64,000 nt of DNA, taken from the NCBI GenBank assembly GCA_029959195.1, contig CP114120.1, forward strand, positions 1,612,001 to 1,676,000, in the 5' to 3' direction. Below the pieces are notes generated by a model. The model saw only the letters and a list, made by a program, of their open reading frames with translations. It did no database searches and was not told the DNA's origin. Of the stretch, positions 44,886 through 47,984 are shown in pieces. The DNA comes from Dictyophora rubrovolvata (taxonomy: Eukaryota > Basidiomycota > Agaricomycetes > Phallales > Phallaceae). The position numbers and the translations under genes were made by a program. How positions within the stretch are numbered: position 1 is the first letter of the stretch; the number at the start of each line of letters is the position of its first letter.

Positions 44886-47800
44886 ATGGCGCTCAATGCT
44901 TTTCGAAAAACAGTTTCAAACCCTGAAACTGAATTGAAACGATGGAGGAAAACATTCGATTCAAACGCAAAAAAGGAGGTAGAAGGACAAAAGTATGCTT
45001 CGGTTCTAGTTCTCAACGAGCATAGCTTTGCTAACTTCGTGCAGGTTTCTTGATATCGAGTCATTCATAAACGCAATTGCGCCCAAAGACGATTTGGAGA
45101 AAATAAAACGAGCACAGTACGCTATACTATTTAAGGTAGCCGATAGCTCTCGGAGGGGCCTGGTGTCATGGGACGACTTTGTGGTGTTTGAGACCATATT
45201 GAAACGCCCCGACGCTGATTATTGGATTGCCTTTAAGTACTTCGACGTGTGAGTTGCCCTCATATTTTCCTATCTCGTCTCCAAAATTGACTGTGCGTAG
45301 GGACGGATCGGGCACAATTACATATGATGAGTTCAAAAATGTCTTCTCCACCAGCTTAGGTCCCAGTAGCATCCCTTTTGATTTTAATTGGTGCGTCTCC
45401 TGCGCTCAGATCTCTGTATAGCCGTCTGATGTATGATCATCCAGTGACTGGGTGAAACTTTATCTTGGAAAGCGAGAAGGCACCCACGTTCTTGGATGTA
45501 GGTCAAGAGCTCCTGATCCTACTTTTCTTGTCATTTCCTGAATAACTATACAAGATAATGAATTTACTCAACTCATGAAAGGACTACAAGGCGAACGTTT
45601 ACGTCAGGCCTTCAAATACCTAGATGACAACCAAGATGGTTTCATAAAACCCGAGCAATTTAGACGAATTATTGTAGTACGTGTCGAGCTGTTTCATGGT
45701 GAAACTAAATCTCAGCTGTTCTCCTAGGAACTGGCTGGGCATAAACTGTCTGACGTAGTAATAGAACGGCTTCCCACCTTGTGCACTATTTCACCCGGTG
45801 GTCGTATATCATACTCGGAGGTGATAGCTTTCCACAACGTCATAAGAGGTGCGTCAAATGTATGTTAGATTATTTTTCAGCGCACTTACACTTCTATCAT
45901 AGAAATGGACATGGCTGAACGGTAAGCGAGCAGTAATGAGAGAACTATGGGAACGCTTACAAGCTTTTTTCAAAAGTATAATCCGCGATGCAACTGCGAA
46001 ATCGAAGGATGGTCGCATAGACCAAGTTGATTTCTTGAACCATGCGGCGTCTACAACTCGTTATGGTATCTTCTCGCCTATGGAAGCATCCATCATATTT
46101 CACTTTGCTGGACGAGGAAATGGGAATCAAAGACTGGCGCTTGTAGACTTCGCGCAGTTGCTAGATCCACGATGGCAGCCTCCAGCCGACACATTTACCA
46201 AGCCAGCTGTCTCTGATGCGGTGTCTCTTTTGAAAGAAGTGGGACATTCAACCTATAATTTTGTTCTCGGTGGATTGGCAGGATCACTTGGTGCAACAAT
46301 AGTATATCCGATTGATTTGGGTAAGCGTAGTCCTTGTGAAATGTTTTGGCAATCGTTTCTTGTATTCACCAATGATTAGTTAAGGTAAGTTGCTTTACTA
46401 GTCTTGAATTTCAAGGAATATTCGTACCTTTACTGAATCTTGTTTAGACAAGGTAAGCAGAAGCTGTTTTCTTCTTTTTTATACTTTCTAAACTCGGACC
46501 AACAATGTCACTAGAATGCAAAACCAACGGAGTACTGTCGTTGGTCAATTGCTGTATGCGAACAGTATGGATTGTGTTCAGAAGGTTTTCAGAAACGAAG
46601 GCCTTTTGGGATTTTATCGGGGTTTAGGACCACAACTTGTCGTATGTGATATCGTCCTTTTTTCTGAAGTCAGTATTAGTATACTCGAGTGTAGGGTGTT
46701 GCACCAGAAAAGGCCATCAAATTGACCGTAAATGACTTTATCCGGAGCAGAGCAATGGATCCCGAGACCGGTAGAATCAAGTTAATATGGGAGGTTGTAG
46801 CGGGAGGTATGGCAGGTGGATGTCAAGTTGTATGTATACGTCTGGTACTGTTAGGTATCACGGAGCTGATTGAATTCAAGATTTTCACGAATCCGTTGGA
46901 GATTGTGTAAGGTTGAAGCATCGCCATTATGTCCACGTCGTGTAACTGTTGCATAGGAAAATCCGATTACAAGTCCAAGGTGAAGTTGCGAAGGCTGAAG
47001 GTGCAGTACCAAGAGGGGCTATTCACATCGTGAAGCAGCTGGGATTACTTGGGCTATATCGTGGGGCATCGGCGTGCCTTCTTCGCGACATTCCATTTTC
47101 CGCTATATATTTCCCAGGTAATTTGTTAGCCGGTCATTTTTTCAGAACCTGATGTTAATATTTCTCAGCGTACGCGCACATCAAGAAGGACGTCTTCCAT
47201 GAAGGATATAACGGGAAGAAACTTGGTTTTTTTGAAACGTTGGTATCGGCTGCAGCCGCGTGGGTGTTCCCGTTTGGACGGTGCTTCAATAACTGACAAT
47301 CACGCTTCAGCGGAATGCCGGCGGCATATCTGGCAACACCAGCAGGTATGTTCCGACGGTAAACTTTTTGAAGGATATATGTTCACCAGAATTATATTGC
47401 AAACTCGTGACCAGATGTCGTCAAAACGAGGTTGCAGGTAGAGGCACGAAAAGGCGAAACAACCTATAAAGGCTTGACTGATGCATTTTTCAAAATTTGT
47501 ATGTGTATCTTCCGATCTTTTTCTCTGATGATTGTTTTTGATTCCTTCGATTTTGGAAGATCGTGAAGAAGGGTTTAAAGCTCTTTTCAAGGGTGGACCT
47601 GCGCGAGTCCTGCGAAGTAGTCCTCAGTTCGGGTTTACCCTAGTGGCCTACGAGTACTTGCACAAGGTATGTGTGGACGATCGAACGGCTTTAATTTCAC
47701 ATTAATCGACCTGCACCTTTTCTATTAGTTCCTTCCTGTAAGTTTGACTCGTTCCTTTTTACACAAGCCTTATATAGTGTTTACCCCTTAGTATCCGTGG

Positions 47801-47984
47801 AGTGAGCAGCCACGCCAACTGGAAACTCGACTAAGCGCTCCCGATTCAGATCTGTCCCGCATCCGGTATGTCATGATATTCATCTGATATCATTGACCAG
47901 CTCACTCTTTTTTGCAGAGCTCGGAATGCATTGAAAATACTTCTTGATGTCCATGGCGACTTTGGTCGGCGCCCTACGAACTGA
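44886..47984 (+). CDS. AGC1: calcium-regulated mitochondrial aspartate/glutamate carrier (AGC1/aralar type)
   Basis: Exchanges matrix aspartate for cytosolic glutamate plus a proton across the inner membrane, feeding the malate-aspartate shuttle. The N-terminal half faces the intermembrane space and has EF-hands: [13 protein letters not shown] (about 45245-45335) and [13 protein letters not shown] (about 45622-45665) keep the Asp/Glu ligands. The carrier half has three repeats: [40 protein letters not shown], each followed by its (F/L)YRG- or FKG-type block ([41 protein letters not shown]). About seventeen introns. Two consecutive 5-nt microexons (46380-46384 TTAAG and 46448-46452 ACAAG) lie between 46320 and 46515 and supply VKTR of the first signature motif. 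The last exon ends GRRPTN at TGA 47982-47984. Confidence 0.96.
46380..46384 (+). other. AGC1: 5-nt microexon 1 of the carrier gene
   Basis: Flanked by ...GATTAG upstream and GTAAGT downstream. Adds TTAAG after a G left from ATTGATTTGG, giving GTT AAG (Val-Lys). Confidence 0.85.
46448..46452 (+). other. AGC1: 5-nt microexon 2 of the carrier gene
   Basis: Flanked by TGTTTAG and GTAAGC. Adds ACAAG; with the next exon's first A this reads ACA AGA (Thr-Arg) before ATG CAA AAC CAA. Confidence 0.85.

Follow-up and report, generated by a model that had tools for sequence, protein, structure and literature searches.

Two predicted consecutive 5-nt exons in the first carrier signature of an AGC1-type gene of Dictyophora rubrovolvata

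Microexons, including adjacent ones, are already known, and the pair described here belongs among them. In the rice gene Os08t0562700-01 a 5-nt and a 12-nt microexon lie next to each other; both were validated by sequencing of RT-PCR products, and the annotation lacks the 5-nt one (PMC8831610). Arabidopsis APC11 contains a constitutive 1-nt exon that was shown experimentally, for which intron definition and stepwise intron removal were proposed (PMC4674806). Human MPC1 has a constitutive 4-bp microexon between long introns, and in this case the authors invoke exon definition (PMC9929638). Microexons that adjoin very short introns in C. elegans are reported to escape the need for PRP-40, and the intron-definition model offered there is called speculative by its authors (PMC8378409).

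For fungi, a 2024 paper describes functional microexons as previously undescribed in filamentous species (PMC11121469). A 1-nt exon has been reported in Fusarium CYP621A, where 20 orthologues share it and reads from two species confirm it (PMC12940212). The P450 genes of Phanerochaete chrysosporium, described in 2005, have many tiny exons, the shortest of 6 bp, and frequent introns of 45-55 bp (PMC1184071). In the open-access literature that we searched, no fungal pair of 5-nt exons was found.

The gene studied here, AGC1, resembles the rice gene in having two consecutive tiny exons, one of them 5 nt long (PMC8831610), and it resembles CYP621A as a fungal case in which a microexon is deduced from a conserved motif and the reading frame; the median intron there is 56 nt (PMC12940212). 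However, in contrast to the plant gene both exons are 5 nt long and lie in a short-intron genome, and unlike CYP621A, with its single 1-nt exon backed by orthologues and reads, AGC1 has two predicted 5-nt exons in a row. APC11 shares with our proposal for AGC1 an ultra-short constitutive exon, intron definition and the sequential removal of introns, whereas it has a single microexon and experimental evidence (PMC4674806). The MPC1 exon is similar in consisting of a few bases that are not a multiple of three, and different in its long flanking introns (PMC9929638). P. chrysosporium is, like the host of AGC1, intron-rich with tiny exons, and the passages of that paper on basidiomycete P450 genes are without a back-to-back pair (PMC1184071).

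The window, i.e. the whole stretch of DNA analysed, has a length of 64,000 nt and corresponds to positions 1612001-1676000 of contig C4 in a genome of 28.24 Mb and 11 contigs. Positions in AGC1 are those of the window, and all its features lie on the forward strand. The gene, modelled by hand and by script on the genomic sequence, extends from 44886 to 47984 and has 21 exons that encode 661 residues free of stops. Its 20 introns are all of the GT-AG type and 50-69 nt long, which corresponds to 10 introns per kb of coding sequence.

The product is a predicted aspartate/glutamate carrier of the SLC25A12/13 type by homology. It matches the Pfam family Mito_carr in three stretches (236.6 bits) as well as EF-hand families, and residues 20-300 resemble the regulatory domain of Aralar1 (4p5x, E 2.2e-41). 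The latter two matches describe an EF-hand N-terminal domain of the Aralar/citrin type, and because of these homologies the name AGC1 is right. A PxD/ExxK/R signature is found in each of the three repeats (PIDLVKTR, PLEIVKIR and PADVVKTR). The regulatory half has a single location in the genome. Near the end of the gene model there is also a 9-nt exon (47729-47737, TTCCTTCCT) that encodes FLP. The evidence for this exon is weaker since the frame survives its skipping, and it could be optional.

The first signature is interrupted by introns 8, 9 and 10. The upstream exon (45977-46320) ends within the signature, after YPIDL and one G. Intron 8 (46321-46379, 59 nt, GTAAGC...TAG) is followed by the microexon TTAAG (46380-46384), which completes V and gives K. 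Intron 9 (46385-46447, 63 nt, GTAAGT...TAG) is followed by the microexon ACAAG (46448-46452), which supplies T and the first two bases of R. After intron 10 (46453-46514, 62 nt, GTAAGC...TAG) the downstream exon (46515-46641) brings the last base of R and then MQNQRSTV. The splice product that restores the motif reads GATTTGG, TTAAGACAAG, AATGCAAAAC. Both TTAAG and ACAAG are internal exons of at most 15 nt, flanked by GT-AG introns and needed for frame and motif, and the three introns fall inside the gene-wide length range.

A sequence-only reading of this locus had given the same exon and intron boundaries, and all of them are exact, as are the intron lengths and the GTAAG donors and AG acceptors that it described, the acceptors being TAG in each case. 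It had also claimed that removal of 46321-46514 as one intron breaks the frame; this form indeed runs into a stop at 46627 and leaves 390 residues.

To describe the alternatives we enumerated splice paths whose donors lie within 46300-46345 and whose acceptors lie within 46490-46530, with intron lengths of 40-230 nt and at most two internal exons. There are 418 paths between 46300 and 46530; 82 are open with the frame kept on either side, 65 contain P.[DE]..[KR], and the strict signature PIDLVKTRMQ is given by a single one, the form with TTAAG and ACAAG. With the first donor and the last acceptor fixed, the motif is matched by one splice form out of 52. Repeat 1 with both microexons scores 85.7 bits against the Pfam Mito_carr family, compared with 64.0, 69.0, 69.6 and 72.2 bits for four chosen alternative open forms (four of 81).

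The same kind of enumeration bears on a different view of the locus, in which the 194-nt stretch is one complex intron, either a stwintron or recursively spliced, that leaves no exon, or in which another order of removal leaves other residues. In Hypoxylon, a mitochondrial carrier gene has been reported to contain a stwintron (PMC8469720). However, full removal of the stretch shifts the frame, and when up to three GT-AG introns of at least 40 nt are taken out, nested or in any order, there are 82 distinct open in-frame remainders, of which only TTAAGACAAG fits the motif: others of equal length fail, and those of other lengths alter the spacing. A stwintron has an internal intron that interrupts a splice element of the external one, with nothing coding between the two, and the 194-nt stretch is not built in this way. 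We therefore consider a complex intron highly improbable. That the motif can be completed only through TTAAG and ACAAG, as the earlier reading stated, is true for GT-AG introns of at least 40 nt, nested and any-order removal included, and the domain matches and splice-path tests uphold its description of an AGC1 gene whose first PxDxxK signature includes two separate exons of 5 nt.

Next, we used a spliced profile aligner, which works without gaps over 23 columns and permits introns. Its profile was trained on 21 signature peptides with repeat 1 of AGC1 left out, and its splice matrices on 17 AGC1 introns, leaving out the three around the microexons. The aligner places both 5-nt exons unaided, with a score of 38.9 bits. 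If at most one intron is allowed, the best form of repeat 1 reaches 17.6 bits and reads on into an intron, while the best two-intron form of equal start, end and length reaches 11.9 bits. The aligner was run over 35 carrier clusters (the genome holds at least 35) and found 87 signature sites of at least 16 bits at 33 loci, and none in the other two clusters. The surveyed carriers supplied 19 of the training peptides (19 of 28, kept by eye), so the scores of contiguous sites in these carriers are not independent. On the opposite strand there is one match of at least 16 bits, and its score and 14-nt exon point to the neighbouring carrier gene itself.

The frequency of chance fits was estimated from 20,000 dinucleotide-preserving shuffles of the 194 nt in which the outer splice sites were kept. 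Some splice form agrees with a loose motif, PIDL[VILMTA][KR]x[RK]MQNQR, in 160 of the 20,000 shuffles, so a chance fit to this motif is not negligible. The strict motif, with [VIL]K[TSAVI]R, is reached in 9 of 20,000, and the loose motif together with GTAAG donors and YAG acceptors in 2 of 20,000. A broken gene or an assembly error, with a truly damaged motif and 5-nt exons that fit by chance, would be in line with the loose fits, and also with the fact that the exons are deduced from the genome. In contrast, the frame is open throughout the rest of the 661-residue gene, whose product agrees with its family, strict fits are limited to the 9 shuffles, and the aligner gave no match of at least 16 bits in 551,532 nt of shuffled sequence (three sets of 183,844 nt). 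We regard such damage as very unlikely.

How unusual the exons are can be judged from the 87 signature windows of 69 nt, which cover 33 loci and 68 introns of one protein family. Fifteen internal exons lie wholly within them, with sizes of 1, 5, 5, 7, 14, 15, 21, 26, 26, 29, 31, 32, 35, 36 and 48 nt. An internal exon of at most 15 nt is present in 5 of the 87 signature windows, which belong to 5 of the 33 loci, and one of these five cases is weak. Repeat 1 of AGC1 is the only signature window with three introns. Random intron placement predicts 2.28 internal exons of at most 5 nt, 3.12 of at most 7 nt and 6.21 of at most 15 nt in the 87 signature windows; with AGC1 included, 3, 4 and 6 are observed. 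The counts fit random intron placement, and this fit rests on small numbers, because with AGC1 left out just 1, 2 and 4 exons remain.

For adjacent exons of at most 5 nt each, 0.031 signature windows are expected and one is seen; this one is AGC1, which prompted the survey. If 20 introns are scattered at random over genes as long as AGC1, 63% of these genes contain one or more exons of at most 5 nt and 3.9% contain two of them side by side. One tiny exon is thus to be expected, whereas the pair is uncommon without being astonishing. At the intron density of the signature windows, 0.0113 per coding nt, two exons of at most 5 nt would lie between three consecutive introns in about 0.3% of such triples. 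The earlier statement that exons this small are very rare back to back needs softening: single ones are not very rare, being found in 5 of 87 signature windows as random placement would have it, and the back-to-back pair of 5 nt is uncommon.

We also searched the genome with a strict 5+5 pattern with strong sites, modelled on AGC1, in a search that skips very common words. There is one match in 28.2 Mb, AGC1 itself, and since the reversed control of the pattern also matches once, this is no more than expected by chance. Protein scans for relatives in bacterial/archaeal and viral contigs gave 15 and 3 stretches, respectively, with a pattern match, and none of them was confirmed as a relative; these collections are not meant for fungi, so the result is uninformative on conservation.

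Tiny exons are also predicted in other carrier genes of this genome. In L014, which we take to be citrate-carrier-like, the first repeat seems to require a 1-nt exon (C) at L014:2160 (C11:546080, +), between introns at 2076-2159 and 2161-2220; the repeat scores 20.8 bits with this exon and 3.1 bits with at most one intron. In the neighbouring look-alike L015 the C lies inside an exon and the intron is one base further on. L015 also has a 14-nt exon in the first signature (L015:3421-3434, -), with 28.6 bits compared with -1.3 for at most one intron. In L016 a 7-nt exon, GTTTGAT, is part of the PFDVVK signature of the third repeat (L016:2553-2559, -; C11:793003-793009); the score of 40.1 bits falls to 13.7 if at most one intron is allowed, and both flanking introns start with GTAAG. 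A 15-nt exon in L025 is weak, with 36.9 bits against 33.5 with one intron.

The donors of introns 8-10 agree with the U1 consensus in 6, 8 and 7 of its 9 positions, respectively; in 78 other introns the average is 5.7. GTAAG donors follow all three AGC1 microexons, if the 9-nt exon is counted, and occur in 3 of the 17 other introns of the gene (Fisher P 0.018, tested post hoc). Outside AGC1, the donor after the 7-nt exon of L016 is GTAAG, while the 1-nt exon of L014 is followed by GTGCG, against the trend. Strong GTAAG donors after microexons may help, which is suggestive only. Within the stretch tested, no YTRAY branch site is present in introns 8-10, compared with 51% of the 78 other introns, while YTNAY is found in all three, and in 82% of the others.

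The exons could alternatively be part of a switch for unproductive splicing, in which frequent and purposeful skipping or retention, followed by mRNA decay, sets the level of AGC1. Five nucleotides are not a multiple of three, and the six altered forms (skipping of either microexon, skipping of both, or retention of any one of the introns) all truncate the protein, to 357-410 residues, with 9-12 introns remaining downstream of the stop, so they would be decay targets if the fungus has such a decay pathway. However, retained introns, and skipped exons whose length is not divisible by three, often act in this way, and the U1 matches lean towards constitutive use. We consider such a switch unlikely, more probable nonetheless than a complex intron or a broken gene.

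We think it very probable that AGC1 is intact and that both 5-nt exons are normally present in its mRNA, probably through intron definition; they most likely owe their origin to a near-random placement of introns. As to this origin, introns are dense (10 per kb of coding sequence in AGC1) and nearly randomly placed, so that some would land 5 nt apart, which is the most likely source of the 5+5 arrangement. An origin of introns 8-10 by duplication was considered and dropped: the longest strings that they share pairwise are 5-6 nt, and two of the three are the donor itself, so there is no sign of a recent tandem duplication.

In the proposed mechanism each intron of 59-63 nt would be recognised as a unit across itself. 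Since two spliceosomes cannot flank a 5-nt exon simultaneously, introns 8-10 would leave one by one, and once a neighbouring intron is removed the microexon would have become part of an exon of normal length. The order of removal need not begin at the 5' end. The sequence-only reading held that splicing of the two exons must depend on intron definition. This is reasonable for the AGC1 microexons, but "must" is too strong in general, because the 4-bp microexon of human MPC1 is spliced in through a process that its authors term exon definition.

A pair of 5-nt exons that follow one another within an invariant motif offers a clean test of how the spliceosome deals with exons far too short for binding on both sides, and the site also tests the order in which neighbouring introns leave. 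It is possible, though we are somewhat inclined to doubt it, that in this fungus exon length has no practical lower limit, with introns placed at random and as little as 1 nt apart, both singly and in tandem, that tandem microexons are routine and mostly unannotated, and that intron definition is complete. If this were true, AGC1 would be one of many genes with tandem microexons. Should exon sizes indeed follow random placement even to 1 nt, the usual methods of gene prediction will have misread the frame of many genes of intron-dense fungi.
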